A stretch of DNA of 64,000 nt, from NCBI GenBank assembly GCA_015660865.1, contig JACTUA010000001.1:388304-452303 (forward strand), given 5' to 3'. Position numbers and translations under genes: made by a program. Origin of the DNA: Methanomicrobiales archaeon (GTDB lineage Archaea > Halobacteriota > Methanomicrobia > Methanomicrobiales > JACTUA01). The notes below the pieces were generated by a model. The model did not search any database, was not told the DNA's origin, and saw only the letters and a program-made list of their open reading frames with translations. Below are positions 26,120 to 62,402 of this stretch, piece by piece; position 1 is the first letter of the stretch; every line of letters begins with the position of its first letter.

Positions 26120-26185
26120 GATCGACGTTAGGGATAACTTAGCCGGCGTTAGGGATAATTCCGGCCAGGCGTGAGGAGTGATAAC
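26120..26185 (+). promoter_or_regulatory. Leader element of the first DUF3494 gene
   Basis: Two tandem copies of CGTTAGGGATAA (about 26125 and 26147). The second lies in a hairpin-capable 24-mer (26142-26165) with GCCGG and CCGGC ends. A TATA box (AATATATATTCC, about 26107-26118) lies just upstream. The same leader precedes the genes at 42263-43339 and 43917-46061. Confidence 0.5.
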
Positions 26186-27673
26186 ATGACAGGTACACAA
26201 AAAAATGCAAGAAAAAAGTTCTCCCTTGTTTTCACCGTGGCGTTGATCTGCCTGATGGCAGCCGCGATAACTCCCTGCGTGATGGGCGCTTCAACCGTGA
26301 GTCTTGGGACGGCCGGTAATTATGTGATTCTCGCAAAATCAGGAATCACGACCACAGGAACTACAATGATTACCGGAAATATTGGAGTGAGCCCCATCGC
26401 TGCGGGGGCCATAACTGGATTTGGACTCATCAAGGATTCCTCGAATCAATTTTCGACATCGTCCCTGGTGGTAGGAAGGGTATATGCGGCCGACTATGCG
26501 TCTCCTACTCCTGCTGTTCTCACAACGGCCGTAAGTGACATGGAAACTGCATACACCGACGCAGCAGGACGAGCAGGTCCCGATGCCACCGAACTGTACG
26601 CGGGAAATCTCGGTGGAAGGACCCTTGCCCCCGGCCTTTATAAATGGTCCACCGGCGTGCTCATACCGGCGTCAACGGCTCTCACTCTGGACGCGAAGGG
26701 CAATGGGGATGCTGTCTGGATCTTCCAGGTATCAGGAGACCTCACCATGAGTTCCGCTTCGCAGGTTGTATTGATCAACGGCGCAAAAGCGGAGAATATC
26801 TATTGGCAGATCGGTGGCGGCACGGGTGTGACTCTTGAAGCGGGTGCGCATGCTGAAGGTACCATCCTCGCGGCAAAGGCGATCACCATGAAGAGTGGGG
26901 CGTCACTCCATGGGAGGGCACTGGCACAGACCGCGGTTACCTTGATCGCAAATACCATAACGGCACCAACACCCGCCCCGGCACAAACCGCTGTACCAAC
27001 AACGGTACAAACCGTTGCAACAACACCGGCACAAACCGCTGCAACAACAACGGCACAAACCGCTGCACCAACAACAACAACGGCACCCACAGGAGCAGCC
27101 AGCACAACGAAAACGGTGAATGTCGGTGGAAACTCCGGGGTTTACCAGGCTAAGGTCACTGGCACCGGGAATACCGGGCTCACCGTCACCGGCACCACAG
27201 CATCCGGCCCCGGGCAGGGTATCCCACAGCCTTCCGGCACCGTATATCAGTATCTCGATCTCGCACCGGCACATTACACCACCATAGATCAGGCAGTGAT
27301 CTCATTCACCGTGCCGGTCTCGTGGCTCGACGACCATAATATCGCCCCCCAAAATGTCGTACTTCAGCATCTCGACGGCACCATGTGGGATTCATTGCCG
27401 ACTACACTCGTGCAAACGGTGGGTGGACAGGTGTACTTCACCGCAGTAAGCTCCGGATTCGGGCGATTTGCGATCACCGGACAGTATACATCAGCTGCCA
27501 CGACAGTGCAGACCATCGTATCTACCGTGGCACAAACCGCCCAGCCCACGTCGCAGCCCACGTCGTTACCGACAACAAAATCACCCGTCCCGGTCTGGGT
27601 GCCGGTAACTGCGGTGATCGGTGCACTGCTGATCATGGCAGTTCTTTCCGGCCGGAGCGGGAAAAATTCCTGA
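26186..27673 (+). CDS. DUF3494 (ice-binding-like) surface protein with PGF-pre-PGF domain
   Basis: 495 residues from ATG 26186 (GTGAGGAGTGAT ahead). Signal peptide about 1-35; DUF3494 beta-helix domain about 36-255 (GTAGNYVILAKSGITTTG...GNLGGRTLAPGLYKWSTGVL...GGTGVTLEAG); Thr/Ala/Pro repeats (about 255-305); a PGF-pre-PGF-like domain (about 308-435, VPVSWLDDHNIAPQNVVLQH); a linker and C-terminal membrane anchor (VPVWVPVTAVIGALLIMAVL) with basic tail. Some DUF3494 proteins bind ice; in methanogens they more likely serve as adhesins or surface coat. A nearly identical but shorter paralogue lies inverted at 42263-43339. Confidence 0.85.
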   Translation: MTGTQKNARKKFSLVFTVALICLMAAAITPCVMGASTVSLGTAGNYVILAKSGITTTGTTMITGNIGVSPIAAGAITGFGLIKDSSNQFSTSSLVVGRVYAADYASPTPAVLTTAVSDMETAYTDAAGRAGPDATELYAGNLGGRTLAPGLYKWSTGVLIPASTALTLDAKGNGDAVWIFQVSGDLTMSSASQVVLINGAKAENIYWQIGGGTGVTLEAGAHAEGTILAAKAITMKSGASLHGRALAQTAVTLIANTITAPTPAPAQTAVPTTVQTVATTPAQTAATTTAQTAAPTTTTAPTGAASTTKTVNVGGNSGVYQAKVTGTGNTGLTVTGTTASGPGQGIPQPSGTVYQYLDLAPAHYTTIDQAVISFTVPVSWLDDHNIAPQNVVLQHLDGTMWDSLPTTLVQTVGGQVYFTAVSSGFGRFAITGQYTSAATTVQTIVSTVAQTAQPTSQPTSLPTTKSPVPVWVPVTAVIGALLIMAVLSGRSGKNS

Positions 27674-27907: not shown

Positions 27908-28223
27908 ATGAAAAAGAGCACGTTTAACACCCCCCCGTTTTCATGCCCGACCTTAGCAGACGGGCAAAAATTTCTCCTGCGCCCAACTGATCCCCTGACA
28001 GCAGAAATAGTTGCCTTGATAACAGACGTGATGCACCTCTCACCGGGTACCGATGGGCGTGAGATCTTCGTCTGCGTAACCGAAAACTACGTTCAGGAGA
28101 GCATCCCAAAGGAGACGGGGCCATTGTGTGCTGCCTCTCCCCGGGAGTGGATAAGATCATGAAGGCGATTCAGATGTCTCAGCTGGCCCGATCCATCTAT
28201 GAACAACCGGAAAGAACCCGATG
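27908..28223 (+). pseudogene. Relic of an HPr-kinase-like (ScmC-like) gene, frameshifted and truncated
   Basis: MKKSTFN...LADGQKFLLRPTDPLTAEIV and DVMHLSPGTDGREIFVCV align with the N-terminus of the 38396 protein (LTNGQQWRFRPTDTGSAEVI, DVMRLSPVSSGTELFVTV). After a frame change near 28120 the match goes on (CCLSPGVDKIMKAIQMSQLA against CILPPGTDDAMQIIQMMDLT). The P-loop and peptidase parts are missing. It ends in the start codon of the nucleotidyltransferase gene, so the pair was once one operon. Confidence 0.65.
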
Positions 28224-29417
28224 ACGGATGTCAAAAAGCCAGACCTGGAGCAACTCGTGCCGTATGAGACACGTGATGAGATCGAGCTGATCCTGACTTG
28301 TTCCAAAGGGTCAATAACCAAAGATAACAGGGAAACTATCGCAAATCTTCTTAAAAAAGAATTAAACTGGGATTATATATACCGGCAGGCAGAGAGACAC
28401 GGGCTTATCCCTCTTCTTTATTATAACCTGAAGAACACCGCTCCTGAACTGGTGCCGGAAGATATCCTTCAGCGAATGAATGAGATCTATCTCCCCAGCA
28501 TGAAACGATCGATGATTCAGACCAGAGAACTGCTTCAGGTCATTCAGCTCGGAAAGGACCATGAAATACCCGTCATACCTTATAAAGGAGCACCCCTGTC
28601 ACAACAGATATACGGGGATATCGGCCTTCGGATATCTTCTGATATTGATATTATTGTTCGCCAGCAGGATGTGATCCGGGCCAAGGCTCTCCTCATTTCA
28701 CAAGGATATATTCCCCAGATATCTTTGACTCCTGAACAGGATAAAAAATTCATTCGGGTGCGATGCGAGTATGATTTATATCACCCTCGTCGGACTACCA
28801 TTGATATTCACTGGCAGTTTATTCCATGGTACTACTTAGCCCCCTTTGACGAAACCGACATCTGGTCAGGATTGAAGGTGTTATCCCTTGAGGGTCAGGA
28901 TATCTTTGCTCTTTCTACAGAAATGCTGATTATTGCTCTGTGTATCCATGGAGCAAAGCATCAATGGAAGGAACTCAGACAGATATGTGATATTGCAGGG
29001 ATCATTGCATCTGAGAAAGATATCGACTGGGAATTGATACTAAAAATTGCCAGAGAAAAAAGAATTGAACGGATAATTTCTCTCGGGTTGCGACTGATGG
29101 AGGAGTTGATGAAAACCGATCTTCCCCTCTTTGTATCCGAAGTAATCAGGCGTGATCGCGTCGTACAGCACCTGGTATCATCCAGTATTGATACTATATT
29201 CACAGAAGAGCAGAATCATGGAGGGGCTATTCAGGAGGTACTTTATTGGGTTTCGGTTCGCGAATGCTTATGGGATAAGCTCCGGGTTATTTCATTATTG
29301 GTATTCGAACCAAATGATGACGATTGGGCATATATTTCACTCCCCGGGATCCTTTCTCCATTATATTATATTATCCGGCCGATACGGCTGGCATTTGAAT
29401 ATGGAGTAACGGGATGA
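28221..29417 (+). CDS. Nucleotidyltransferase-family protein (NTP_transf_5-like), RiPP-cassette type
   Basis: 398 residues. PVIPYKGAPLSQQIYGDIGL followed by ISSDIDIIVRQQDVIRAKALL is the GD-IDI (acidic pair) active-site region of the uncharacterised nucleotidyltransferase group often found in lasso-peptide and PqqD-containing clusters. HWQFIPWYYLAPF and CIHGAKHQWKELRQICDIAG continue the family pattern. The substrate is unknown; roles in modifying a peptide or a sugar precursor are proposed by context only. It overlaps an HPr-kinase relic upstream and the next glycosyltransferase gene (ATGA), and is AT-richer than the flanking cassette. Confidence 0.75.
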   Translation: MTDVKKPDLEQLVPYETRDEIELILTCSKGSITKDNRETIANLLKKELNWDYIYRQAERHGLIPLLYYNLKNTAPELVPEDILQRMNEIYLPSMKRSMIQTRELLQVIQLGKDHEIPVIPYKGAPLSQQIYGDIGLRISSDIDIIVRQQDVIRAKALLISQGYIPQISLTPEQDKKFIRVRCEYDLYHPRRTTIDIHWQFIPWYYLAPFDETDIWSGLKVLSLEGQDIFALSTEMLIIALCIHGAKHQWKELRQICDIAGIIASEKDIDWELILKIAREKRIERIISLGLRLMEELMKTDLPLFVSEVIRRDRVVQHLVSSSIDTIFTEEQNHGGAIQEVLYWVSVRECLWDKLRVISLLVFEPNDDDWAYISLPGILSPLYYIIRPIRLAFEYGVTG

Positions 29418-34073: not shown

Positions 34074-34388
34074 ATGGAAGGGATTAGGCTTGCAAAAATT
34101 CCCGTGGCTAACCCTGCTGTTCTATCCCGGGACGGACTGGACGAGGGGAAGGTTATAGTAAACTGTGACACGGGTGCTGCGATTGCCGTCAACAGGACAG
34201 GTGCGCTGATATGGGCCCTGATCGACGGGCGGCGCAATGCCGAAGAAATTGCAGAAGCAGTCCGGCGGAGTTTTAGTAATGCACCGGATACGGTCAAGGA
34301 TGATGTCGCAGCGCTCCTCATAACCCTTTCAGAAGATGGTTTTATCGGGTATGAAGTCAAGAGCCTTGCAAATAATTACGGGGAATAA
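34074..34388 (+). CDS. PqqD-like RiPP recognition protein, first copy (ScmD-like)
   Basis: 104 residues from ATG 34074 (an in-frame ATG 42 nt earlier lies in the TATA region). GKVIVNCDTGAAIAVNRTGA is the beta-hairpin and LIWALIDGRRNAEEIAEAVR the helix of the PqqD fold, which binds leader peptides of RiPP precursors and presents them to radical SAM enzymes. The C-terminal helix (DDVAALLITLSEDGFIGYEV) is complete. Two PqqD-like genes in series ahead of two radical SAM genes suggest one partner each, or one per precursor. Confidence 0.8.
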   Translation: MEGIRLAKIPVANPAVLSRDGLDEGKVIVNCDTGAAIAVNRTGALIWALIDGRRNAEEIAEAVRRSFSNAPDTVKDDVAALLITLSEDGFIGYEVKSLANNYGE

Positions 34389-34417
34389 TTCATCAAAAAC
34401 CGGAGGGGGAAACAAGA

Positions 34418-34738
34418 ATGGAACCTGATAAAAACACTACCGGTCCAAACAAGACGGGCATTCGCCTGGACGGGCGGATAACCGCAAACCCGGTTGTTTC
34501 GTGCAGGATTGAAGGGGATAACGGTGCCCTCCTCTTCAATGCTGATACCGACAATACCCTGTTGATCAACCCCACGGGCATCATTGTATGGAACTTTATC
34601 AACCAGCCCCGCACGGTCGAAGAGATCGTTGAATATATCACCAGATCTTGCAGCAATAGTCCGGATCACGCCACGGTAAGAAAGGATATTGAAACGTTTG
34701 TTACGGATCTTGCCCCGGACTTTATATCGGAGGTTTAG
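34418..34738 (+). CDS. PqqD-like RiPP recognition protein, second copy
   Basis: 106 residues with a strong GGAGGGGG about 8 nt before the ATG. NGALLFNADTDNTLLINPTG and IVWNFINQPRTVEEIVEYIT give the PqqD hairpin and helix; the C-terminal helix ends DLAPDFISEV. It differs from the first copy by a longer polar N-terminus (KNTTGPNKTGIRLDGRI). The next gene starts 4 nt after the stop, so the radical SAM enzyme is cotranscribed. Confidence 0.8.
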   Translation: MEPDKNTTGPNKTGIRLDGRITANPVVSCRIEGDNGALLFNADTDNTLLINPTGIIVWNFINQPRTVEEIVEYITRSCSNSPDHATVRKDIETFVTDLAPDFISEV

Positions 34739-34742
34739 GGTA

Positions 34743-35888
34743 ATGCAGGAGCACCCGCTGTACGCTGACCTGACGGTTCCGCCAAAAGGGGTTGCACAGG
34801 CACCGATATCCGTAGATCTGGCCCTTACCGGGCGATGCAACCTCTCGTGTAAATACTGTTTTTATGCCGACAGCATGACCACCCGGACGGATCTTCCGGC
34901 CGGACGGTGGCTGGATTTTTTTACTGAACTCGGGGGGCTCGGGGTCCAGAGGGTGTGCCTTTCGGGCGGCGAGATCTTTGTCCGCCCCGATATCTTTACC
35001 CTGATAGATGGTGTGATTGAGAGCAGGATGCGGTACAGTATCCTGTCAAACGGGACGCTGATTACAGAAAAGGTCATCTCTTCATTTTCAGAAGGGAAGC
35101 GCCGGCTCAGGATGGATTCCATCCAGGTCTCTATCGACGGGTCCTGTGCTGAGATCCATGACCTTTCACGCCCGCATAAGAGCTTTGACCGGGCAGTCCG
35201 CGGCCTCCGGCTCCTTGTTGAAGCGAAATTTCCCGTAACCGTGCGGGTGACCTTAAACCACCATAATATCAATGACCTTGAAAAGATCGCCGGCCTTCTC
35301 ATTGATGATATCGGGCTTTCCGGCTTTTCAACCAATGAAGCCGAGGCGATGGGGACTGCCCGGTGCAGCGGCCAGAATATAATGCTCTCGGAAGAGGAGC
35401 GGCGGCAGGCAATGAAGGCTCTTTCAGAACTCAACAAACAGTACGGGGGCAGAATCGGGGCAACGGCCGGTCCCCTTGCCCGGGCAAAGATGGTAAAGGA
35501 GATCGAAGAGAAAATTTCCCGCGGGGAGACCGGGATACCGGGGCGCGGGACGCTCTGCTCGTGCGGCGGTGTTTTTGCAAAGATGGCCGTGCTCCATGAC
35601 GGCACGATGGTGCCGTGCAATATGCTCCCGACGCTGACCATGGGAGTGATCGGGATGCATTCCCTTAAGGAGGCATGGCTCAAATCGCCGGCTATCAATG
35701 CTGTTCGCAGGCGGCGGGAGATACCGCTCTCCGCACTGCCGGAATGTGCCGGTTGCCGGTATACCGGGTTCTGTTCCGGGGGTTGCCCGGCATCGGTGTT
35801 GGCCAAATCCGGCAGGCTGATCGGCACCGATTCCCTGTCCTGCTTCCGCGCCTATGCAGGGGAGGTAGAACCCCATGACACTCTGTGA
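34743..35888 (+). CDS. scmE: Radical SAM/SPASM peptide-modifying enzyme, ScmE-like
   Basis: 381 residues from ATG 34743 (GGAGGT ahead; an earlier in-frame ATG at 34689 overlaps the PqqD gene). CNLSCKYC (Cys32, 36, 39) binds the SAM-cleaving 4Fe-4S cluster; CLSGGEIFVRPDI is the GGE motif. The C-terminal SPASM domain has at least seven cysteines (CSCGGVFAKM, VPCNML, PECAGCRYTGFCSGGCPAS, SLSCFRAY) for two extra clusters. Such enzymes form thioether, C-C or other cross-links in precursor peptides. Assignment to ScmE rather than ScmF of the SynChlorMet cassette is by order and the 'CFYAD' motif, hence moderate. Overlaps the next gene by 14 nt. Confidence 0.75.
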   Translation: MQEHPLYADLTVPPKGVAQAPISVDLALTGRCNLSCKYCFYADSMTTRTDLPAGRWLDFFTELGGLGVQRVCLSGGEIFVRPDIFTLIDGVIESRMRYSILSNGTLITEKVISSFSEGKRRLRMDSIQVSIDGSCAEIHDLSRPHKSFDRAVRGLRLLVEAKFPVTVRVTLNHHNINDLEKIAGLLIDDIGLSGFSTNEAEAMGTARCSGQNIMLSEEERRQAMKALSELNKQYGGRIGATAGPLARAKMVKEIEEKISRGETGIPGRGTLCSCGGVFAKMAVLHDGTMVPCNMLPTLTMGVIGMHSLKEAWLKSPAINAVRRRREIPLSALPECAGCRYTGFCSGGCPASVLAKSGRLIGTDSLSCFRAYAGEVEPHDTL

Positions 35889-37038
35889 TCTCCCTGAAGA
35901 ACCCGTTCTGACTGAACAACAGGCCCGGACCATTGACCTGCCGGAGGGTGTGCCCCCGCTCCGGTCATTCTATCTCTACCTGTCAGCAAGCTGCAACCTC
36001 CGCTGCCGTCACTGCTGGATCACACCGGTGTATTCCGGCGGCAAACCCCTGCCGGGAAAGACCATTGACCCGGCAGCACTCCGGAATGCCGTTACCGAGG
36101 CAAAGACCTTAGGCCTGTCCGGCGCGAAACTGACCGGCGGAGAACCGATGCTGCACCCGCAGTTCAAAGAAGTTGTCGAGCTGCTCACGGCCGAAGGGCT
36201 CTCGATGAACATGGAGACGAACGGCACGCTGATGACGCGGGAGATGGCGCACTTTCTCAAGGAGAAATCCAAGGTAGGATTTATCTCGGTGAGTATCGAC
36301 TCGCCGGTGCCTGCGGAGCATGATGCGTTCCGTGGCGTGAAAGGGGCGTTTGATGCCGCAATCCGCGGGCTTGACTTCCTTGTTGAAGCAGGCTACACCA
36401 ACTGCCAGGTGATCATGGCAGTCCACCGCGGCAACCGGCACCAGATGGAAGCACTGGTAAACCTTGCCGCCAAACACAAGGCGGAGTCGGTGAAGTTCAA
36501 CCCGGTGACCCGGACCGGCCGCGGCATCGGCATGCACGAACGCGGCGAGGCACTGAACTTTTCTGAATATATGGAATTCTCCCGGTACGTGAACGAGGAA
36601 CTCCGCCCGAAGGCACCGATCACGGTTTTCCTGTCGATGCCGCCAGCCCTTACGCCATTTTCCGAACTCTGGCGGACAAACGGGAAGAGCTGCGACTGCG
36701 GGGTTTCAGGTATCCTCGGCATCCTTGGTTCAGGTGAGATTGCCCTCTGCGGGATTGGCCAGACCATTCCCGAGCTGGTGTACGGGCACCTCGGGAAAGA
36801 CGGTATCCGGGAGATCTGGCTGAATCATCCCGTAATCCTCGGGCTCCGGAGAGATCTCCAGAACTTCAGCGAATATCCCGGCATCTGCGGCTCCTGCATC
36901 CATGCAAAATCCTGCCGGACCGGCTGTGTCGCAAACAACTATGGCTACGGCGGAAAACTGGTCTCTCCCCCGTGGCTCTGTGATGAGGCTGAACGGCGGG
37001 GCGTGTTCCCCAAGAACCGGATGCGGATAAAAAAGTAG
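35875..37038 (+). CDS. scmF: Radical SAM/SPASM peptide-modifying enzyme, ScmF-like
   Basis: 387 residues. CNLRCRHC (Cys40, 44, 47) followed by WITPVYSGGK; KLTGGEPMLHPQF is the GGE motif. The SPASM-like C-terminus has CDCGVSGILGILGSGEIALC and GICGSCIHAKSCRTGC, with a final Cys in PPWLCDEAERR. YLYLSASCNLRCRHCWI matches the ScmF branch as I recall it. Partner of the preceding enzyme; the two share only general similarity, so they probably carry out different steps. A 34-codon Cys-rich gene follows after 130 nt. Confidence 0.75.
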   Translation: MTLCDLPEEPVLTEQQARTIDLPEGVPPLRSFYLYLSASCNLRCRHCWITPVYSGGKPLPGKTIDPAALRNAVTEAKTLGLSGAKLTGGEPMLHPQFKEVVELLTAEGLSMNMETNGTLMTREMAHFLKEKSKVGFISVSIDSPVPAEHDAFRGVKGAFDAAIRGLDFLVEAGYTNCQVIMAVHRGNRHQMEALVNLAAKHKAESVKFNPVTRTGRGIGMHERGEALNFSEYMEFSRYVNEELRPKAPITVFLSMPPALTPFSELWRTNGKSCDCGVSGILGILGSGEIALCGIGQTIPELVYGHLGKDGIREIWLNHPVILGLRRDLQNFSEYPGICGSCIHAKSCRTGCVANNYGYGGKLVSPPWLCDEAERRGVFPKNRMRIKK

Positions 37039-37168
37039 TGCATCCATCGGGGACTATATCATTCTGTAAGCTGCAGACGGTAAACAATTGCCACGTTTTC
37101 TGCTCCTGATATCAGGGTGAAAAAAGGGAGGAAATATCGGAACAGGGAAACTCCCTTCCGTAGTGGAG

Positions 37169-37273
37169 ATGACTGTTCAAGAGAAAAATATCGATACAGA
37201 GGATATTGGTGAATCCTCTGATCCCCCGATCACGTGGATCTGCCAGTGTTGCATTAACCGTGGACCTTTTTAA
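37169..37273 (+). CDS. Candidate RiPP precursor peptide (34 aa, CxCC)
   Basis: ATG 37169 to TAA 37273. The first 18 residues are acidic and leader-like (NIDTEDIGESSD); the last 13 are TWICQCCINRGPF, with three cysteines (25, 27, 28) and Pro-Pro at the junction. It lies 130 nt downstream of the two radical SAM genes on the same strand, with GGAGG 40 nt ahead and GTGGAG just before the ATG. Its 3' end meets the end of the seven-Cys precursor gene tail to tail (4-nt overlap). Not a known family; the size, leader-core split and place make it a good second substrate. Confidence 0.5.
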   Translation: MTVQEKNIDTEDIGESSDPPITWICQCCINRGPF

Positions 37274-37605
37274 GTCACGGTCCCACCGGTAGTGCTGCAG
37301 GACGCATGAGCGCTATTGCCACTGGTAGTGCAGGCAGCCAAAGTAGCGGAATTACCACTGGAAGTGCAGTAATCCCCCGCGGTAGTACCGGCAGTGCAGT
37401 AACCACCAGCGGTACTCCCGGATGAGCTGCAGTAACTCCCACCCCCGGTAGCGATAGTACCGGCACTGCAATAAGCTCCTGCTGCAGCCGTGCCTGCGGT
37501 ACAAATTCCTTTCCCGTCACTTAAATCGCCGATCCTGACCACGCGAGGCGGTGAGTAGACTGATTGGGAACCGGGTTTCATTGAATCATCTCCGAGGTCT
37601 GACAT
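37270..37605 (-). CDS. RiPP precursor with seven Cys/Gly/Ser/Thr repeats (ScmA-like)
   Basis: 111 residues. Leader 1-33 contains YSPPRVVRIGDLSDGKG, close to the YxxP...IG motif read by PqqD-like proteins in lasso and related systems. The core is made of seven units each with one Cys (35, 46, 59, 70, 80, 92, 103; spacing 10-13), of the type YC(S/T)(A/S)(G/S). Only Ala, Gly, Ser, Thr, Cys and a few Tyr/Asn fill it, as expected for a substrate of thioether-forming radical SAM enzymes. Two starts are possible: ATG 37605, leaderless from the TATA at 37629-37637, or ATG 37581 with GGAGATGA ahead. Transcribed towards the radical SAM genes. Confidence 0.75.
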   Translation of the reverse strand: MSDLGDDSMKPGSQSVYSPPRVVRIGDLSDGKGICTAGTAAAGAYCSAGTIATGGGSYCSSSGSTAGGYCTAGTTAGDYCTSSGNSATLAACTTSGNSAHASCSTTGGTVT

Positions 37606-37626
37606 GGAGTAGAAATCGGCTGTTGT

Positions 37627-37645
37627 CTATATATATTTTCCTAAT
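37627..37645 (-). promoter_or_regulatory. TATA promoter of the seven-Cys precursor gene
   Basis: On the minus strand GGAAAATATATATAG: a BRE-like GGAAAA joined to a TATATATA box, centred about 28 nt before ATG 37605. It is the strongest-looking archaeal promoter in the cassette, consistent with high precursor expression. Confidence 0.55.
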
Positions 37646-37839
37646 CACTCTCAAAAGATTAATTCTTCATATCGTCTGAATATGGAAACAGGAACCTTAT
37701 GGCACAGCATGAGTCACAACCTGGATCGCCAGCATCTTTTCAGGGAGGGATCCCCCAAAGCCAAAAACCCAGTAATCCGTTTTGATCGTATTTTTCAAAC
37801 AGGGGTGAATGATCATGGTTGCAATATTCTCATTCAACA

Positions 37840-38295
37840 GGCATTTCCTGATTACGGTGTGTCAGGAACGGTTGACAATGCTACTGGTACTCGTAGTCTC
37901 ATTCCGGCGGAGTGTTGCCCCTGCGGCAGTTCCTTGACGATATCCGGGGGTCATGGTCCCCGGGTGAGGAAAGGGGGGGTCGTCATGGAGGATCCGGGAG
38001 GAATCCCCGAGGAATTCCGCTCTGTAGAAATGCCTGGATAAAATCCGGGCGCTCACAGGGGCTTTTACCCCCCCGCCGCTGTGGCTCAGCGAAGATGCAT
38101 AAACATCTTCTCGAGCCCGCCCCTGCCAGCGGCAATGGCGGTATTCCCCCCAATTGCGATAACTTCCCGAGAAGGTAATACGCTCATCATCGCAAAGCGC
38201 AGGGGCGATCCGGGGACAGCATACCTGTCGAAAGACAGGTGTGATGGGCAGGTAGATTTCCATCAGGAAATCTTTGAACAGGCACTGTCCCCCTC
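37840..38295 (+). ncRNA. Candidate structured RNA inside the RiPP cassette
   Basis: No protein-like frame. Perfect stems by eye: TTCCTGA/TCAGGAA (37845-37868); CCGGGG/CCCCGG (37944-37963); CGCTG/CAGCG (38077-38091); GAAGATG/CATCTTC (38091-38110); a 9-bp long-range stem CGCCCCTGC/GCAGGGGCG (38118-38126 with 38199-38207); ACCTGTC-GAAA-GACAGGT (38223-38240, GNRA loop on the plus strand); AGATTTCC-ATCA-GGAAATCT (38254-38273). The last two are enclosed by GGGGACAG/CTGTCCCC (38212-38219 with 38285-38292), a three-way junction. It ends about 100 nt before the HPr-kinase/peptidase gene, so it may be its leader or a separate RNA. No known class fits. Confidence 0.4.
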
Positions 38296-38395
38296 CTCTC
38301 TCATGTAAGTAATGAATTAAATTTCAGATGATGAGGTTTTCTCAGAGCCGAATTTCGTTCACTTAATATCCCATGCAACAGAAAAAGTACCCAAA

Positions 38396-39934
38396 ATGCC
38401 TGCCGACAGCGATCCCTCAGCACCCTTGACAGGTATCCGGCTCACGAATGGACAGCAATGGCGTTTTCGCCCGACTGATACCGGATCTGCTGAGGTAATC
38501 CGGCGGATGGCAGACGTAATGCGACTCTCTCCTGTTTCATCCGGTACGGAATTATTTGTCACGGTCCGGCAGGGTAAAGATGAAGGCAGGGCCCGGGTTC
38601 CGGGCCAGAACCCGCTCACCTGCATTCTTCCTCCCGGAACAGACGATGCGATGCAGATAATCCAGATGATGGATCTCACCACAATGATCGCTTCCGAAAC
38701 CCTTCCCTGCGGAGGGCTGCTCATCCACGGGGCGCTGGCCGAACGGGACGGGTCCGGCGTCATCCTTGCAGCTCCCGGCGGGACGGGTAAGACTACGGCC
38801 AGCAACCGGATCCCCCCGCCGTGGCATTCGCTCAGTGATGACGCAACACTGGTGGTGCGGGATGGTTACGGGAACTATTTTGCCCACCCCTTGCCCACGT
38901 GGAGCCGTTTCTTCGATAACGGGCCCGGCGGCAGCTGGGAGGTGGAACGGGGGATACCGCTTGCTGCGGTCTTCTTCCTCACCCAGTCGCCGGAAGACCA
39001 AGCAGAGCCGCTGAATGCCGGTGAAGCGGCTGCGTACCTGATGGAATCCGTTCACCAGCTCATGGGCGTACCAGCACGGACGGAATGTATACGGGGAGAG
39101 TCCGAATCACTCTGCGAGATGGAGCTAGCCGCGGTGAGTGCACTGGTGAAGGTGATACCTGCCTACCTCCTGCACATCAGCCTGACCGGAAGGTTCTGGG
39201 AGGAGATCGATACCGTTCTCAAAGAGCGGACCGGGGCCGTTCCTGCCGATAGAAAGGAGAAGACTTCTCCAACCGCAAAGAAATTTCATAGGAGTGAGCT
39301 TCCCCATCCAGCGATTGATATGTTCGGCGCCGGGCATATCCCGATTGTGTATTCCGGGCCCAGCATGAACCCGACGCTCCGGGCACCCGACCTGCTGGAT
39401 GTCGTCCCCTACCATGGGGAGAAGCCTGCTGTCGGCGACATCATCTGCTTTACCCCGCCCGGCGATGAAAAGAATGTCATCCACAGAATTATACGGATTA
39501 CCGGTTCCGGCATCCAGACACAGGGAGATAATAATCCCTCGGCAGATCCAGCCCTTGTACAGGAGGACCGGATAATCGGCCGGGTGATCGGCGCAACCCG
39601 GGAAAAACACCATCGGAAAATTGCCTGTGGGACTCTCGGCCGGTTCACCCGCTGGAGGATGCACATCCGCAAGTCCGCTCTTGATAGAATAGTTAAGATT
39701 ATCCGACTCGCAAAACCGGCTCTTGTTCTCACCCGGGCAATCTCTCACCTTCTGCCCGGCCGGTGGAAGCCCCGCATCGTACTCTTCTCGTCCAGGAATA
39801 CCCGGATAATGAGGTTGTTCTTTGGGGCATCTGTCGCCGGGGAATTCAATACAATAGAGGGTAAATGGACAATCCGGTTCCCGTTCTGGCTTCTGGTCAA
39901 TGAAACTGCTCTTCCTACTGTTGAACGGCCTTAA
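38396..39934 (+). CDS. HPr-kinase-like protein (ScmC-like) fused to an S26 signal-peptidase domain
   Basis: 512 residues. The N-terminal part (about 1-280) has a Walker A loop GGTGKTT (128-134) followed by PPWHSLSDDATLVV, the pattern of HprK/PEPCK-like kinases in RiPP cassettes. The second part (about 300-400) is a signal-peptidase-I domain of the archaeal type: SGPSMNPTL with Ser323, NVIHRIIRI with His363, QGDNN with Asp378, the Ser-His-Asp set of S26B. The C-terminal 110 residues are unassigned. A kinase and a leader-type peptidase in one chain would suit precursor maturation, although signal peptidases normally act at membranes and no clear helix is seen next to the domain. A truncated relative lies at 27908-28223. 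Confidence 0.75.
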   Translation: MPADSDPSAPLTGIRLTNGQQWRFRPTDTGSAEVIRRMADVMRLSPVSSGTELFVTVRQGKDEGRARVPGQNPLTCILPPGTDDAMQIIQMMDLTTMIASETLPCGGLLIHGALAERDGSGVILAAPGGTGKTTASNRIPPPWHSLSDDATLVVRDGYGNYFAHPLPTWSRFFDNGPGGSWEVERGIPLAAVFFLTQSPEDQAEPLNAGEAAAYLMESVHQLMGVPARTECIRGESESLCEMELAAVSALVKVIPAYLLHISLTGRFWEEIDTVLKERTGAVPADRKEKTSPTAKKFHRSELPHPAIDMFGAGHIPIVYSGPSMNPTLRAPDLLDVVPYHGEKPAVGDIICFTPPGDEKNVIHRIIRITGSGIQTQGDNNPSADPALVQEDRIIGRVIGATREKHHRKIACGTLGRFTRWRMHIRKSALDRIVKIIRLAKPALVLTRAISHLLPGRWKPRIVLFSSRNTRIMRLFFGASVAGEFNTIEGKWTIRFPFWLLVNETALPTVERP

Positions 39935-40199
39935 CCGGTTCACCCTCAGGACATTTCCCGCAAACCAATGAATTCACCACGGTAGAGGGCGGTACCGGGT
40001 TCTGTGTATGAACATGCCCGGGCAGGTGATGGCAAAGAGCAGCGGTTCCCTGCGTTGATCCAGACGCATGTAATTAAAAATTATTCGCGGGAGATTGAAA
40101 CCGGTGGGGGAATGGGAATTATGGATGACGTGTATCCTGCATGTCCATAGTTCACCGTGGGATATTCCTGACTATGTTACATGCGGGATTTAATGGTCT

Positions 40200-42101
40200 T
40201 CATACCTCAGTTCCTTTTCTGTCATTACCACCCGTCATCCTGGATGGATCATTCTCCTGACCTGATTTAGAAATATACAGATCAGCCTGAGCTCTGAACA
40301 TTTCGGCGTATCGTCCGTTCAGTGCCATAAGATCTGCATGTGAGCCATGCTCGACAATTTTTCCCTGTTCAATCACATAGATCCGATCCGCCATCTGAAC
40401 GGTAGAGAACCGGTGGCTGATAATTACCGCAGTTCTATTCTGAATAACCTCCCTGAACTTCCTGAAGATCTCTGCTTCGGCGAGAGCATCGAGTGAACTT
40501 GCCGGTTCATCCAGAAGAATCAGTTCTGCATCCCTGAAAAAAGCCCGTGATAATGCAATTTTTTGCCATTCTCCGGTGCTGAGCTCCTGACCCCCGCTGA
40601 AGATTTTACCAAGCATGGTCTTGTACCCGTTCGGAAACCGTTGAATCATCCTGTCTGCTCCTGCTTTCCGGGCCGACTTCTCGATGCTTCCCGGTTCATC
40701 AGCACGTTCGATGTCCCCTACCCGGATATTTTCCTCCACGGTGAGCTGGTACCGGATATAATCCTGGAAAAGTACGGATAATCGTCGTCTCCATGCCTCC
40801 GGATCAATGCGATTCATGTCGATATCATCCACCGTGATCGTGCCTGCATCAGGGAGGTAGAGTCTGCACAGGAGTTTGAGGAGGGTGCTTTTCCCGGCAC
40901 CATTCTCACCGACAAAAGCGATTACTTCTCCCTTCCTGATGGTAATTGAAATATCCTGAAGAGCGGGTTTTTGTGCTCCGGGATAGGTGAATGAGACGGA
41001 GCTCAGCCGGATTTCGTTTACCGGATGATTCGGGAGCGGAGTTGGATGCTCAGGCGCTGCAATTGCCGGCTTTAAATCAAGAAACTGGAGAAAGTCCCGC
41101 AGAAAGAGGTGATCGTCATAGAGCAAGTTGAGGCTTGAAAAGATACTCCCGATATACCCGACACACATCTGAAACCCCATGAAGTACATCACCATGTCAC
41201 CAAGGGTTATCTTCCCATTGAGTGTCATAAACGCAATCACCGTAAACGATCCAAACACCGCAGCGGTAACCAGTCCCTGGGTGATGATATCCCAGAACGC
41301 TTTTGACCGGGAAATAGAGAGTTTTGAGAACCGGATTAATTGCTGGGTTTTATTGTATAATCCCCTGAAGAAGGGTCCGAGGGAAAAGAGCCGGTTCTCT
41401 TTGGCATAATGAGAATGGGTAAGCATGATATGATAATAGTTACTTTTCCGGTCCAGTTCGGTCTGCCTGAGAGTAAGATCATGGAGTTGTCTTGAATGCC
41501 AAATCCTGACAACCATTGCAGGAATAGCAGATCCTATGAGAATGATCCCTGCGAGTACAGAGAAAGAGAGGATGAGAGAACCGACCGCAGTGATGGAGAT
41601 GCAATTTTGTACAATCTGCACGAGATCATTTACTATATTTCCCGGACGGGAGGAACCACCGGTCTGGGCCCGTTGCAGGGTATCCTGGTAGACAGGGTTT
41701 TCGTAGTATGCAAGATCCAGTGCCATGGACTGGGTATGGACAAGGTCGGTGATCCCCTGGGTCAGCTCGAGGGACTGTACCTCATTCACATATGCAGAGA
41801 TGGCTCGAAAGCAGGCGGTAAGAAGTGCAATGATCACTGCTGCAAAGATGAAAAGAAAAAGTTCCTGTGAAACAGCGGCCTTGTCTCCGGCAGCAATACC
41901 GGCAGTCACGGTGTCCACGAGGAGTTTTATAATGTACAGGGATGCAAGGGGGAGAAGACCGAGGATGAACATAAGGAGGATGTTTGCTAACGTCCATCCA
42001 GGCGTGTACCGAAAGACTAGTCGTATTGCCCGGGGGATTTCGTCTTTCATGGATACGAGGGTATCATGGAGATCAAACCCGGAGAGTAGAGAGCCTTTCA
42101 T
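40200..42101 (-). CDS. ABC exporter, fused membrane and ATPase domains
   Basis: 633 residues. Six membrane helices in about 25-330, then the ATPase domain: Walker A GENGAGKSTLL, Q-loop LFQDYIRYQLTVEENI, signature LSTGEWQKIALSRAFF (LSTGE in place of LSGGQ), Walker B ELILLDEPASSLD and the H-switch VIISHRFST. It belongs to the half-transporter exporters used for lipids, drugs and peptides. There is no N-terminal C39 peptidase, so leader removal must come from elsewhere; the fused S26 peptidase of the neighbouring gene is a candidate. It lies convergent to the HPr-kinase gene, next to the right inverted DUF3494 gene. Confidence 0.9.
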   Translation of the reverse strand: MKGSLLSGFDLHDTLVSMKDEIPRAIRLVFRYTPGWTLANILLMFILGLLPLASLYIIKLLVDTVTAGIAAGDKAAVSQELFLFIFAAVIIALLTACFRAISAYVNEVQSLELTQGITDLVHTQSMALDLAYYENPVYQDTLQRAQTGGSSRPGNIVNDLVQIVQNCISITAVGSLILSFSVLAGIILIGSAIPAMVVRIWHSRQLHDLTLRQTELDRKSNYYHIMLTHSHYAKENRLFSLGPFFRGLYNKTQQLIRFSKLSISRSKAFWDIITQGLVTAAVFGSFTVIAFMTLNGKITLGDMVMYFMGFQMCVGYIGSIFSSLNLLYDDHLFLRDFLQFLDLKPAIAAPEHPTPLPNHPVNEIRLSSVSFTYPGAQKPALQDISITIRKGEVIAFVGENGAGKSTLLKLLCRLYLPDAGTITVDDIDMNRIDPEAWRRRLSVLFQDYIRYQLTVEENIRVGDIERADEPGSIEKSARKAGADRMIQRFPNGYKTMLGKIFSGGQELSTGEWQKIALSRAFFRDAELILLDEPASSLDALAEAEIFRKFREVIQNRTAVIISHRFSTVQMADRIYVIEQGKIVEHGSHADLMALNGRYAEMFRAQADLYISKSGQENDPSRMTGGNDRKGTEV

Positions 42102-42262: not shown

Positions 42263-43339
42263 TCAGGAATTTTTCCCGCTCCGGCAGGAAAGAACTGCCA
42301 TGACCAGCAGGGCACCGATCACCGCAGTTACCGGCACCCAGACCGGGACGGGTGATTTCGTTGTCGGTAGCGACGTGGGCTGGGAGGTTTGTGCCAGTGT
42401 TGCGGTTGTCTGCGTGGCGACGGGCGTTCGCGTCCCGGTGGATACTGTCGGTGCGGCTGTCTGCACCGTTGTGGTGGGGGTCGTTCCTGCGGATGCCGGT
42501 GTTGTTGCAGCGGTTTGAGCCGTTGTTGGTGCGGTGGTTTGAGCCGGGGCGGGTGTTGGTGCGGTTACGGCATTTGCGATCAAGGTAACCGCGGTCTGTG
42601 CCAGTGCCCTCCCATGGAGTGACGCCCCACTCTTCATGGTGATCGCCTTTGCCGCGAGTATGGTACCTTCAGCATGCACACCCGCTTCAAGAGTCACACC
42701 GGTGCCACCGGCGATCTGCCAATAGACATTCTCCGCTTTTGCGCCGTTGATCAGTACAACCTGCGAAGCGGAATTCATGGTGAGGTCTCCTGCCAGCTGG
42801 AAGATCCAGACGGCATCCCCATTGCCCTTGGCGTCCAGAGTGAGAGCCGTTGACGCCGGTATGAGCACGCCGGTGGACCATTTATACAGGCCGGGGGCAA
42901 GGGTCCTTCCCCCGAGATTTCCCGCGTACAGTTCGGTGGCATCGGGACCTGCTCGTCCTGCTGCGTCGGTGTATGCAGTTTCCATGTTACTTACGGCCGT
43001 TGTGAGAATAGCAGGAGTAGGAGACGCATAGTCGGCCGCATAGACTCTTCCCACCACCAGGGACGATGTCGAAAATTGATTCGAGGAATCCTTGATGAGT
43101 CCGAATCCCGTTATGGCCCCCGAAGCGATCGGGCTCACACCAATATTTCCGGTAATCATGGTCGTTCCGGTTGTCGTGATTCCTGATTTTGCGAGAATCA
43201 CATAATTACCGGCCGTCCCAAGACTCACGGTTGAAGCGCCCATCACACCGGGAGTTATCGCGGCGGCCATCAGGCAGATCAACGCGACGGTGAAAACAAT
43301 GGAGAACTTTTTTCTTGTACTTTTTTGTGTACCTGTCAT
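42263..43339 (-). CDS. DUF3494 (ice-binding-like) surface protein, short form
   Basis: 358 residues from ATG 43339 (RBS GTGAGGAATGAT). Signal peptide, then a DUF3494 domain almost identical to the 26186 protein through about residue 255, then a short Thr/Pro/Ala/Gln linker and the same C-terminal anchor (VPVWVPVTAVIGALLVMAVL). It lacks the PGF-pre-PGF domain of the other copy, so either that domain was lost here or gained there. Same leader element and TATA upstream. Confidence 0.85.
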   Translation of the reverse strand: MTGTQKSTRKKFSIVFTVALICLMAAAITPGVMGASTVSLGTAGNYVILAKSGITTTGTTMITGNIGVSPIASGAITGFGLIKDSSNQFSTSSLVVGRVYAADYASPTPAILTTAVSNMETAYTDAAGRAGPDATELYAGNLGGRTLAPGLYKWSTGVLIPASTALTLDAKGNGDAVWIFQLAGDLTMNSASQVVLINGAKAENVYWQIAGGTGVTLEAGVHAEGTILAAKAITMKSGASLHGRALAQTAVTLIANAVTAPTPAPAQTTAPTTAQTAATTPASAGTTPTTTVQTAAPTVSTGTRTPVATQTTATLAQTSQPTSLPTTKSPVPVWVPVTAVIGALLVMAVLSCRSGKNS

Positions 43340-43363
43340 GATATCATTCCTCACGCCTTGATA

Positions 43364-43916: not shown

Positions 43917-46061
43917 TTAGTGTTTGTCGTTGTTTTTATCGTTGAATCTATCAAAGAGATCCTTCTCACTCAAACGATCGTTATTGCAGTTATTACGACC
44001 ATCACTTTCATCCTTATCATAATAGTTCTCTTTATCATTGTTATCGCGCGGCTTTCCACATTCCTTGTGGATCTGGATGTTGCCGCCCTTCAGAGTGCCC
44101 GAAGCGCTGTAACCGTTCGAGAGTGTCAGACTGAAGCTGTCCTTGTTGCGGCCGGACTCGCCGTTGTCAACAACAACAACCGTGTAGGTGAAGGATCCTT
44201 TACCGTTGACCTTGGCAATGCCTTCGATCCGACGTGTCACGGCATCGATTACGGTGTAACCCGTAACACTCGTGCTCGTGACCTTCACACCATTCTTGCC
44301 GTGGTCATTGTATGAGAGGTCACCCCAGAACTTGCCGTTCTTGATGCCGCCGGAAACGCCGAAGGTCGCTTTGTCATTGATCCATCCACCACCGGTAACG
44401 AAATCACTGCAAGGCTTGGGCCTGGGGCAAGACTTGGGCGGAACTGTGCCGCCGCAGGTCGCGATTGTGTCTGTACTCATCGTCACTGCACCATTCAAAG
44501 CCAACATTTTACCGGACACGATTGTACTTGGTGGAGTGTTTGCGGCGGAGGTCATGGTAATGGTCGTGTAGGCAATAACGGTTCCCAGGAACTGAGAGCC
44601 ATCGATAGTCGCGGAGGAACCAACAGCCCAATACACGTTCGGACCAGTGCAAGTCTGACTCGGATTGTTGAGGGCGACGACTTTTGAATCAGCCATCGTT
44701 ACAAGCGTGGTGCCCGTCTGGAAAATAAACACCGCATTGGGGTCTCCCTGGAAATCAAGAGTAAGTGTTCCACCCACCTGCAAATTCGCAGACGGCGCGA
44801 ACTTATAAACGCCGGGCGTGAACGTCCTTCCATCCAGCTGAGTAACACCCGAGTAGGTAGTAGTGGGCACCTGGGCTACGAGATAATTGTACGTGGTGAC
44901 GGCATCATTATGAGCCGCAGCTGCGACAGGACCTCCCGCATATATCGTCCCGCTCACTAGCCCCAGCCCCGGTGTCACTGTCCCTGGACCCGAGATCCTG
45001 TTTGCTGGCGGCTGTTGGAAGCCGGTGATTGCGGTACCCGGGTAGACACCCAGATCTCCGGTGATGACTGATGCACCAGCATTGGTGACCGTCGTCGCAC
45101 CCAGCACCGCGAAATTGCTGGCCGACCCAAGAGTGACGAAATCACTGCAAGGCTTGGGTGTAGGTGTTGGTGTGGGTGTTGGTGGGCATGGTGGTGTTGG
45201 TTTGTGTGTGCATGGTGGTGTTGGTGTTGGTGGGCATGTTGGTGTTGGTGTGGGTGTTGGTGTAGGTGTTGGTGTGGGTGTTGGTGTTACCGTGCCACCG
45301 CAGGTCGTGGTTGTGTCGATTGCGTCATTAATCATCGTCACTTCACCATTCAAAGCCAGCATCCTGCCCGACACGATTGTAATAGGGGGATTGTTTGCGG
45401 CGGGAGTCATGGTAATGGACGTGGTGGCAATAACGGTTCCCAGGAACTGAGAGCCATCGATAGTCGCGGAGGAACCAACAGCCCAGTACACGTTCGAACC
45501 GCAAGACAGACTGCCGGTGCCGGTGTCGATGGCGACGATTTTTGAATTAGCCATCGCTACCAGCGTGCTGCCCATCTGGAAAATAAACACCGCATTGGGG
45601 TCTCCCTGGAAATCAAGAGTAAGTGTACCATCTACCTGCAAATTAGCGGCCGATGGAAACTTATAAACGCCGGGCGTCAGCGTGAGTCCATTCAGCTGAA
45701 TAACAGCATCCGGGTAGGTAGTAGTTGGGGCCTGGGCCCAGAGAGCATTGTACGCGGTCAGGGCATCAGCCTGAGCCTGAGCTGCGACAGCATCTCCCGT
45801 ATATATCGTCCCGCTTACGAGCCCCGGCGGGAAGCCGGTGACTGCGGTACCCGGGCTGACACCCAGATCTCCGGTGATCTGTGATGGCCCGACATTGGTA
45901 ACTGTCGTTGCACCGAGGACCCCAAAATTACCGGCCGTCCCAAGATTCACGGCTGAAGCGCCCATGACGCCGGGAATTATCACGGCCGTCATCAGGCAGA
46001 TCAACGCTACGGTCAAAACAATGGAGAACCTTTTTCTCGCACTTTTTCTTGTACCTGTCAT
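43917..46061 (-). CDS. Double-DUF3494 secreted protein with TP-repeat linker
   Basis: 714 residues from ATG 46061. Signal peptide (about 1-35), first DUF3494 domain (GTAGNFGVLGATTVTNVGPS...; about 36-255), a (Thr-Pro)n linker with paired Cys (PTPTPTPTCPPTPTPPC), second DUF3494 domain (GSASNFAVLGATTVTNAGAS; about 310-530), then a C-terminal beta domain (FVTGGGWINDKATFGVSGGI) and an Asp/Asn/Lys-rich tail. No membrane anchor at the end, unlike the other two copies, so it is probably released or crosslinked. The two DUF3494 domains in it are more alike to each other than to the anchored copies. Confidence 0.85.
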   Translation of the reverse strand: MTGTRKSARKRFSIVLTVALICLMTAVIIPGVMGASAVNLGTAGNFGVLGATTVTNVGPSQITGDLGVSPGTAVTGFPPGLVSGTIYTGDAVAAQAQADALTAYNALWAQAPTTTYPDAVIQLNGLTLTPGVYKFPSAANLQVDGTLTLDFQGDPNAVFIFQMGSTLVAMANSKIVAIDTGTGSLSCGSNVYWAVGSSATIDGSQFLGTVIATTSITMTPAANNPPITIVSGRMLALNGEVTMINDAIDTTTTCGGTVTPTPTPTPTPTPTPTPTCPPTPTPPCTHKPTPPCPPTPTPTPTPKPCSDFVTLGSASNFAVLGATTVTNAGASVITGDLGVYPGTAITGFQQPPANRISGPGTVTPGLGLVSGTIYAGGPVAAAAHNDAVTTYNYLVAQVPTTTYSGVTQLDGRTFTPGVYKFAPSANLQVGGTLTLDFQGDPNAVFIFQTGTTLVTMADSKVVALNNPSQTCTGPNVYWAVGSSATIDGSQFLGTVIAYTTITMTSAANTPPSTIVSGKMLALNGAVTMSTDTIATCGGTVPPKSCPRPKPCSDFVTGGGWINDKATFGVSGGIKNGKFWGDLSYNDHGKNGVKVTSTSVTGYTVIDAVTRRIEGIAKVNGKGSFTYTVVVVDNGESGRNKDSFSLTLSNGYSASGTLKGGNIQIHKECGKPRDNNDKENYYDKDESDGRNNCNNDRLSEKDLFDRFNDKNNDKH

Positions 46062-46610
46062 GTTATCACTCCTCACTCCTTGATAGTCGGAATTGTCCCT
46101 CAGGCCGGCTCATTATTGCCGGTCCTTGATATATACCTTTCTGTTCTTTCAGTTATTGCAATGAGACTATCCAATGAGAATACTAATATAAAGACGTAGA
46201 ATATTAAGATAAAAACGTTTTGAATCTCTTTATCGCATTGGACACCGGTATATTTATATATTTCAAAATCGCGTCCATATAGTTGACAAAACCTGCAATA
46301 ATCCAGGAGTTCGGGCCGGTGCGGTCGGGTCTTCGCAAGACTTATATCTGCCCGTTGACATATCCCCCAGTTCGGAGGGTATACAGGATTGTATATCACC
46401 TGCCGTATCTGCGGGTACCGGAGAGACGTGCCAAGGGCGACCTCGTGATCGGGAGACCGGAGCCGGTCACCGGCCTCGCGGGTGGACGCAGGATATGCCC
46501 GGTCCTTCACCCAACCGGGCGACCGGTATTCCATCCTGGAACCCGACAGCACCGCAGCCAGCCCGGACGGTGGCCGGTTGACAGAGCAGACAACGTGGAG
46601 CGTGCATGCG

Positions 46611-52357: not shown

Positions 52358-52987
52358 CTAGTCCTTGTGGGTCGCCTTGATCTTCTTCAGCCTGAAGAGC
52401 TCTTCGCGCTCCATCTCATCAAGGCGCATCTTAATGAAGTCCCGAGCAGCGGTGAGCTCGGGGATGACCTTGAACTCGAGCGCGTTCACCCTCCGCTTCG
52501 TTGACTCGATCTCATCGAGGAGCCGCTTCATCGTCGTCTCGATCTCGGCGGCACGGACGATGGAGTCGACGAGCTCCTCGTACGCCGTCGCGGTCTCGTC
52601 CATCACTGAGGAGGTGGCTAAAAGGCCGTAGCCCCGGTCGAAGAGGCCCTTTCGCACCTTCGACGCCTCGATCTGGGGGACCACTACCCCCATGATGTTC
52701 TTTGATTTGAGCACGATCGAGGGTGTTTCCTTCACCGAGAAGGCTGCGGCCTTCAGGCTGATGGACCCCTCGACGGTGTTCGCGAGGTCGCTCATCCTCG
52801 CGGCCTTCCTGTACTTCTCCTGGAGGTCCTCCCGTGTCGTCTTCGCCTTCTCGAGGACATTGAAGAACTCCAGGATGAGCCCGTCGCGCTTCATCTTGAG
52901 GATGTTGTAGCCCCGCTCGGAGAGCTTGATCTTCCTCTTCAGCTGGATCAGCTCGGAGCGGGTGGGCTTGATGTCCCGGATGGCCAT
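52358..52987 (-). CDS. atpD: A-type ATP synthase subunit D (operon 1)
   Basis: 209 residues. IKPTRSELIQLKRKIKLSER and the C-terminal TKRRVNALEFKVIPELTAAR plus EREELFRLKKIK are the hallmark ends of the central-shaft subunit D, a long antiparallel coiled coil that turns inside the A3B3 head. It is the last of nine ATP synthase genes here, 6 nt after subunit B. A paralogue (229 residues) lies at 61709-62398. Confidence 0.95.
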   Translation of the reverse strand: MAIRDIKPTRSELIQLKRKIKLSERGYNILKMKRDGLILEFFNVLEKAKTTREDLQEKYRKAARMSDLANTVEGSISLKAAAFSVKETPSIVLKSKNIMGVVVPQIEASKVRKGLFDRGYGLLATSSVMDETATAYEELVDSIVRAAEIETTMKRLLDEIESTKRRVNALEFKVIPELTAARDFIKMRLDEMEREELFRLKKIKATHKD

Positions 52988-52993
52988 GGGAGG

Positions 52994-56142: not shown

Positions 56143-56158
56143 GTATATCCCTCGCTTG

Positions 56159-57520: not shown

Positions 57521-57532
57521 GCTACGATCCTC

Positions 57533-58111: not shown

Positions 58112-58123
58112 CGCCCGCTCCCT

Positions 58124-60682: not shown

Positions 60683-60727
60683 ACCACGCTCCTTCCGGTG
60701 CTAATACACCAAACTTGAGAAAAGTTC

Positions 60728-60835: not shown

Positions 60836-60993
60836 GGGATCCGGGGTTCTCCGGCCATCCTTCCCTACCCGGTCACATACCGAAATTCGTTGCATTCAGG
60901 GGCCAGTCCCCTCTTTTCATCCGCAGCCCGAGCCCGATTTGGCCGAAACCTATATCGTTCCCCTTGATTATGGTAGCGTGAGGTGGAGCCGGC

Positions 60994-61344: not shown

Positions 61345-61407
61345 GGACCGGTCCCTTCACCGGAAACCTTTTGAAGCATGATAGGAGAGGGAGTGTGAGG
61401 GTGGGCA

Positions 61408-62398: not shown

Positions 62399-62402
62399 GG
62401 CA

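Follow-up and report, generated by a model that had tools for sequence, protein, structure and literature searches.

A divergent SynChlorMet-type cassette in a methanomicrobial archaeon, with a Cys-Gly repeat peptide as its most likely substrate

To our knowledge, the SynChlorMet (Scm) system has been described solely through its enzyme families, and no precursor had been assigned to it. What do these enzymes act on, and what might they make? The question is raised by a locus on contig JACTUA010000001.1 of a Methanomicrobiales archaeon (GCA_015660865.1); the window, as we call the whole stretch analyzed, comprises 64,000 nucleotides (contig positions 388,304 to 452,303), and the locus lies at 34074-42101 within it. 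Our reading, to which we assign a probability of roughly 0.7, is that the locus is a biosynthesis cassette for a ribosomally synthesized and posttranslationally modified peptide (RiPP), that it belongs to a divergent sister branch of the Scm type, and that it operates through the stepwise pathway proposed below.

Every gene of the cassette is intact, with all frames open. A previous reading of the window from its sequence only (here, the sequence-only reading) had described two PqqD-like proteins, taken here as RiPP recognition elements (RREs), two radical S-adenosylmethionine (SAM)/SPASM enzymes, a repeat precursor, an HPr-kinase-like protein fused to a signal peptidase, and an ATP-binding cassette (ABC) exporter. 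All of these were found, as follows.

34074-34388, plus strand: RRE1 (PqqD-like, D1 lineage), probable leader-binding chaperone; PF05402, 57 bits; TIGR04248, 49.2/49.3 bits for the RRE pair
34418-34738, plus strand: RRE2 (PqqD-like, D2 lineage); PF05402, 35 bits; TIGR04248 as given for the pair
34743-35888, plus strand: ScmE-like radical SAM/SPASM enzyme; TIGR04250, 371.3 bits; ATG start with GGAGG ahead
35875-37038, plus strand: ScmF-like radical SAM/SPASM enzyme; TIGR04251, 349.1 bits
37270-37605, minus strand: Cys-repeat precursor peptide of 111 residues; homologues in relatives, and a design common to Scm cassettes
38396-39250, plus strand: ScmC domain, HPr-kinase-like; TIGR04249, 175.8 bits
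39251-39934, plus strand: archaeal-type signal peptidase I domain fused to ScmC, probable leader peptidase; TIGR02228, 54.9 bits
40200-42101, minus strand: MsbA-type ABC exporter (permease plus ATPase), probable product export; PF00005 (ABC_tran), 113.9 bits, and MsbA-type NCBIfam matches

The genes for RRE1, RRE2, and the ScmE-like and ScmF-like enzymes overlap or abut in a tight operon, and the ScmC/signal peptidase fusion is a protein of 512 residues (38396-39934, plus strand). The ScmC, ScmD, ScmE, and ScmF types are thus co-localized within 34074-39934.

To follow the precursor across the family, relatives were gathered via ScmE (199 genomes of the order and 84,980 species genomes) and via ScmC, never via the precursor. 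A complete cassette was defined as a locus with ScmE, ScmF, and ScmC (n = 29; L067, L068, other low-scoring loci of the ScmE scan, and L180 to L182 were left out of the Scm cassette counts), and a precursor as an open reading frame (ORF) with a [YWF]..P leader, then three or more C(x2-3)G motifs, no more than 3 kb from the cassette. A precursor-type ORF was present in 27 of the 29 complete cassettes, 26 of them by this rule and the last, L191, despite an extra upstream Cys that tripped it. Two loci outside the 29, L051 and L179, hold precursor-like ORFs with YxxP leaders by looser inspection. Of 66 control loci surrounding other radical SAM genes, 2 passed the rule; both are GC-rich, with unconvincing leaders, and are apparently spurious. 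The co-occurrence counts take in several related archaeal loci and are not fully independent, while the spread over phyla is independent: precursor-bearing loci occur in archaea, Chloroflexota, Acidobacteriota, Lentisphaerota, Chlorobiota, Nitrospirota, and "Deltaproteobacteria." The sequence-only reading had named an absence of precursor genes from related cassettes as one finding that would speak against it; the relatives instead carry precursors of the same design. On this comparison, the CxxG-repeat peptide is most likely the substrate of the SynChlorMet cassette.

The precursors share a leader and a core pattern. Across 331 core Cys residues, 77% are followed by Gly at +3, which is 4.0 times background, and 317 (96%) have Gly at either +3 or +4; Ala occupies +6 in 36% (3.5 times background), Pro and Val are also enriched at +6, and the next Cys mostly follows at +9 to +13. 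(A false ORF in L192, at 6571, is counted in these statistics, with immaterial effect.) The leader consensus is [Y/W]-E-K-P-x-[L/V/I]-[I/V]-D-L-S, in which the Pro is fixed by the search rule, and the distance from the leader Tyr or Trp to the first Cys is mostly 17 to 22 residues (median, 20).

This precursor type, as defined here, adjoins the Scm enzymes in the window. Its representative there has the leader YSPPRVVRIGDL, with the Tyr at residue 17, and from about residue 33 the core CTAGTAAAGAYCSAGTIATGGGSYCSSSGSTAGGYCTAGTTAGDYCTSSGNSATLAACTTSGNSAHASCSTTGGTVT, with seven CxxG/CxxxG repeats. The unmodified peptide has a monoisotopic mass of 10,410.5 Da. Gly lies at +3 or +4 of all seven Cys residues, which 30 of 100,000 composition shuffles matched, and the Cys spacing of 10 to 13 was equally regular in 18 of 100,000. 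Because so few shuffles equal its Cys-Gly pairing or its regularity of spacing, the pattern is more than chance. Homologues occupy the same place in two related cassettes, one in L047 and two in L049; identity to the L047 homologue is about 41%, compared with 87% for ScmE, and the leader and the Cys and Gly residues are retained. None of the precursors scanned exceeded the cut-off for any NCBIfam or Pfam family. The sequence-only reading had counted two candidate precursors in the window, a number that we revise to one, since a six-frame leader-motif search and a low-stringency tblastn search of the window yielded no second.

Some relatives vary this arrangement. L045 and L046 (genomes G163 and G167) hold arrays of approximately five to nine precursor genes (about nine in L046) with up to 10 CxxG units, and PqqD and truncated ScmE copies recur between the precursors; the arrays look as if a precursor-RRE-enzyme module had been amplified in tandem. 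In L048 (G177), two precursors (11864-12133 and 12339-12629) have another leader, KLDDKDLEHVSGGEG, followed by the same Cys-Gly repeats. This leader weakly matches the double-glycine motif of the bacteriocin type and suggests a different leader peptidase.

How closely does the window cassette belong to the Scm family? The best NCBIfam matches of its enzymes are the four SynChlorMet models (ScmD, ScmE, ScmF, and ScmC), of which only that for ScmC is passed (TIGR04249, 175.8 versus a cut-off of 125 bits). RiPP radical SAM families are therefore matched, where a failure to match any had been put forward as another outcome that would count against the cassette. In a maximum-likelihood tree of ScmE, the window clusters with L047, L049, L048, and L051 (support, 100/98); the Anaerolineae locus L055, whose ScmE is 57% identical to that of the window, lies near this clade with support of only 83/45, and the canonical enzymes form a separate 26-row branch (100/100) with the window outside it. 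Because ScmE, ScmF, and ScmD score below the equivalog thresholds and ScmE is so placed in the tree, we regard the window cassette as a sister branch of the Scm type that has diverged from it, not as a textbook member. The earlier assignment to the SynChlorMet type thus stands as far as a radical SAM RiPP cassette with the Scm models on top, and has to be loosened beyond that point.

The window and the canonical cassettes have in common the four enzyme families, as best matches, and the neighborhood. In the canonical type, too, there are CxxG-repeat precursors, an S26 signal peptidase, and a PF14907 nucleotidyltransferase, usually along with an ABC exporter. They differ in that the canonical cassettes have one RRE lineage and the window two (D1 and D2), in that the window has ScmC fused to the signal peptidase, and in the leader, which is YEKPxLIDLS in the canonical type versus YSPPRVVRIGDL. 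Within the sister branch, the fusion occurs in four sampled cassettes (window, L049, L051, and L179) and the two RRE lineages in five (the same four and L047), while L055 joins two RREs in one protein of 203 residues. Exporters 50 to 58% identical to that of the window are found in L042, L047, L049, and L051. Distribution is patchy: of 392 genomes from the phylum, 13 have ScmC at an E value of 1e-8, and a strong ScmE is confined to the window genome among 11 sampled from its family. Such patchy presence fits horizontal transfer and suggests a product for competition or signaling. Searches for the SynChlorMet cassette and for ScmE/ScmF by name found no open-access paper, subscription papers lying outside the search.

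ScmE carries a complete CxxxCxxC motif and a seven-Cys SPASM set, and these Cys columns are invariant in our alignment (A1). Both ScmE and ScmF match PF04055 (radical SAM); for the SPASM family PF13186, ScmE is over the cut-off and ScmF below it, though the SPASM Cys set of ScmF is visible. The solved structures nearest to ScmE are PqqE and SkfB, which are also among those nearest to ScmF. In L049 (G173), the ScmE gene (about 9497-10618) contains a TGA in frame at precisely the position of a conserved SPASM Cys, which may reflect mutation, a sequencing error, or recoding. A separate piece of ScmF, from its C-terminal end (7622-7732), lies between the two precursor genes.

Gene content, co-occurrence, the precursor family, and the leader and CxxG-repeat design are established by comparison, and upon them we propose the following pathway. 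A PqqD-like RRE would bind the YxxP leader of the 111-residue precursor and present it to ScmE and ScmF, which both carry a SAM cluster together with a SPASM domain and would modify the repeats of the core. Most likely, hydrogen would be abstracted from the Gly (or from the Ala, Pro, or Val three residues later) of CxxG(xxA) and the carbon joined to the Cys sulfur. The result would be as many as seven small, unnested thioether rings, about one per CxxG, with a loss of 2 Da each. ScmE and ScmF may divide the labor, since the two of them face two conserved positions other than Cys. The HprK-like ScmC domain would then phosphorylate a Ser or Thr, which the PF14907 nucleotidyltransferase, with nearby glycosyltransferases, may elaborate further. 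The signal peptidase fused to ScmC would cut off the leader with the help of the RRE, probably around residues 31 to 33, before the first Cys (Cys35), and the MsbA-type ABC protein would export the product.

We consider a thioether most likely because the enzyme of streptosactin, an unnested sactipeptide (GggA/GggB), joins Cys31 to Gly34 within a CxxG (PMC8172795); this part of the proposal draws on the motif design and that one analogue. Streptosactin resembles the predicted product in its small unnested rings, one with CxxG spacing, made by a SPASM radical SAM enzyme. It is, however, a 14-mer with two rings from one radical SAM enzyme, with no kinase or nucleoside triphosphate (NTP) transferase described, whereas the window has up to seven repeats and two such enzymes.

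The alternative that survives best, though we think it unlikely, keeps the same precursor and changes the chemistry: the enzyme pair would make C-C or C-O links, epimerize Ala or Gly, or otherwise alter the +3/+6 residues, and the Cys residues would end as disulfides, metal ligands, or thiols. PqqE, which forms a C-C bond, stands beside the thioether-forming SkfB among the structural neighbors of ScmE and ScmF; the enrichment of Ala, Pro, and Val at +6 makes a non-Cys target plausible for one enzyme; and two enzymes suggest two reactions. Against this, Cys and the Gly at +3/+4 are the most conserved positions of the core (96% of Cys), and a thioether is what one characterized SPASM system makes of CxxG (PMC8172795).

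The later steps of the proposed pathway have a close parallel in the linear polyphosphorylated peptides (LPPs) of Bacillota, reported in 2026 from the lpp cluster of Paenibacillus alginolyticus. There, leader removal by the signal peptidase LppS (S29, H68, and D93), assisted by the RRE, was demonstrated, as was polyphosphorylation of a Ser by the kinase, and LppA is cleaved 16 residues after the leader Tyr (PMC13381572). The LPP gene set is present in the window: an RRE, an HprK-like kinase, an archaeal-type signal peptidase I (the leader peptidase in LPP), an NTP transferase, and an MsbA-like exporter, together with a YxxP leader. Because the LppA leader Tyr lies at -16, the same spacing applied to the window precursor predicts a cut near residues 31 to 33, and the Tyr/Trp-to-Cys distance across Scm precursors fits such a cut. 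The systems also differ: the LPP paper mentions no radical SAM enzymes and reports no Cys-repeat core, and LPP is restricted to Bacillota, whereas Scm adds two radical SAM enzymes, and the LPP precursor motif YxxPxVLxHQxIxFETxxS is not matched by the window leader YSPPRVVRIGDLSDGKG. The kinase/signal peptidase/NTP transferase module of LPP is here linked to a radical SAM system, and so is broader than Bacillota.

The catalytic residues of these proteins are in place. ScmC has a P-loop, GGTGKTT, at residue 128 and a catalytic Asp-Asp pair at 148-149, with the P-loop Lys and the Asp pair invariant among nine sequences, and the kinase half of its AlphaFold2 model is confident and of the HprK/PEPCK-type fold (PEPCK, Z = 14.6; HprK/P by Foldseek). 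The signal peptidase scores 54.9 bits against TIGR02228 (cut-off, 51.85) and has its Ser in GPSMNP, its His in IHRI, and its Asp in QGDNN (residues 321-380), motifs that parallel S29, H68, and D93 of LppS and are retained in nearly all Scm signal peptidases; our motif pattern missed some AHR, THR, and VHR variants, which are visible in the sequences themselves. The window signal peptidase (39251-39934) and Scm signal peptidases elsewhere extend about 100 residues beyond the C-terminal end of the family-model match, and the extension ends in a motif resembling W-[RQ]-I-R-x-P-F-R-L-F-[IV]-[DN]-E-x-x-L-P.

A PF14907 nucleotidyltransferase occurs in 34 of 35 Scm genomes, and in 27 of the 35 it is no farther than 6 kb from the cassette (cassette limits set by hand); tblastn with the window protein found no homologue in the 66 control loci. 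The window cassette thus probably extends upstream to its own copy, with these additional genes.

28221-29417, plus strand: PF14907 nucleotidyltransferase, probable cassette member; 206.6 bits
29414-32008, plus strand: glycosyltransferase-like membrane protein, membership uncertain; weak NF047440 match, 40 bits
32382-33290, plus strand: glycosyltransferase-like GT2 protein, membership uncertain; PF00535, 95 bits

A kinase and a nucleotidyltransferase homologue, PadeK and PsmN, also act on a RiPP in phosphorylated lasso peptides of the paeninodin type (PMC9266682), and PadeK has been called HprK-like (PMC13381572). These lasso systems share with the window a discrete RRE and a [Y/W]xxP leader as well. 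They rely on a macrolactam cyclase and a B2 protease, whereas the window has radical SAM enzymes and a signal peptidase, and the cores are unrelated; no macrolactam synthetase (C) or B2 protease was found among the cassette genes scanned, the flanks not having been scanned for them.

Several observations weigh against the RiPP pathway as proposed. ScmE (371.3 versus 400 bits, TIGR04250), ScmF (349.1 versus 400, TIGR04251), and both RREs (49.2 and 49.3 versus 100, TIGR04248 for ScmD) score under their family cut-offs, although in each case the Scm model is the top-scoring family. WgkB, AhbD, StsB, PqqE, and other families also match ScmE and ScmF with middling scores, and with so many families matched, the bond that the two enzymes form is not fixed by sequence alone. 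The precursor scan found none in L060 and L189. In the AlphaFold2 model of the ScmC fusion, the signal peptidase part has low confidence, and the PF14907 gene of the window lies 5 kb upstream of RRE1 with the two glycosyltransferase-like genes between. Finally, the literature searched reports no chemistry for any Scm cassette, and the window cassette is known from its genes alone. Characterized products of archaeal radical SAM RiPP systems are in general almost nil (PMC12144867).

The sequence-only reading had also offered the two PqqD-like proteins as a sign of two products or of two successive modifications. That the RREs and the two radical SAM enzymes serve two products or precursors now seems improbable. 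Both RRE lineages are retained, and L049 holds two precursors; but the window has one precursor, the L049 pair is alike in leader and repeat design, and ScmE plus ScmF with one RRE and one precursor is common elsewhere. D1 and D2 are two separately conserved, stable lineages that accompany one precursor type in the window clade, and L055 fuses both RREs in a didomain protein, for which reasons we rejected two products as the meaning of two RREs. They look like standing parts of one pathway.

More doubtful still is that the Cys-repeat ORF encodes an unmodified secreted repeat protein, such as an antifreeze-like beta-solenoid, with the radical SAM enzymes modifying something else. Three PF11999 ice-binding-like proteins lie on both sides of the cassette (26171-27673, 42263-43354, and 43917-46076), and insect antifreeze repeats are superficially similar to the 10- to 13-residue Cys repeats. 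However, the N terminus is a YxxP leader of the RRE-binding type and not signal peptide-like, the ORF accompanies Scm enzymes across phyla as counted above, repeat length is variable, and tblastn found no ice-binding homologue beside other Scm cassettes. A single-sequence AlphaFold2 prediction of the ORF gave no fold (predicted local distance difference test score, 39.8), weak evidence on which the beta-solenoid/antifreeze reading was rejected. Least credible is a small redox cofactor, of the pyrroloquinoline quinone or mycofactocin kind, made from one residue pair with the remaining peptide discarded: PqqD and PqqE-like radical SAM proteins are present and PqqE is the best solved-structure match, but the motifs are many, a locus can hold several diverse precursors (about nine in L046), there is a dedicated exporter and kinase, and cofactor precursors are near-invariant whereas Scm cores are hypervariable.

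Taken with the proposed pathway, these comparisons raise the possibility, which we would put a little short of even odds, that Scm cassettes constitute an undescribed RiPP class in archaea and about six bacterial phyla. Its products would be long ladders in which CxxG thioether rings follow one another; they would also be phosphorylated, might be nucleotidylated or glycosylated as well, and would be matured by an RRE-guided leader protease of the signal peptidase type that is fused to the kinase in the window's branch. The presence of a precursor in 27 of 29 cassettes puts the orphan SynChlorMet system within reach of laboratory tests that need one peptide and a small number of enzymes.

Two further regions of the window were noted. 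ORFs at 52358-63800 resemble two adjoining sets of A-type ATPase subunits. At 6538-9816, a protein of 1,092 residues carries a tubulin-like GGGTGGG signature, and a possible GTPase adjoins it at 9813-11396.

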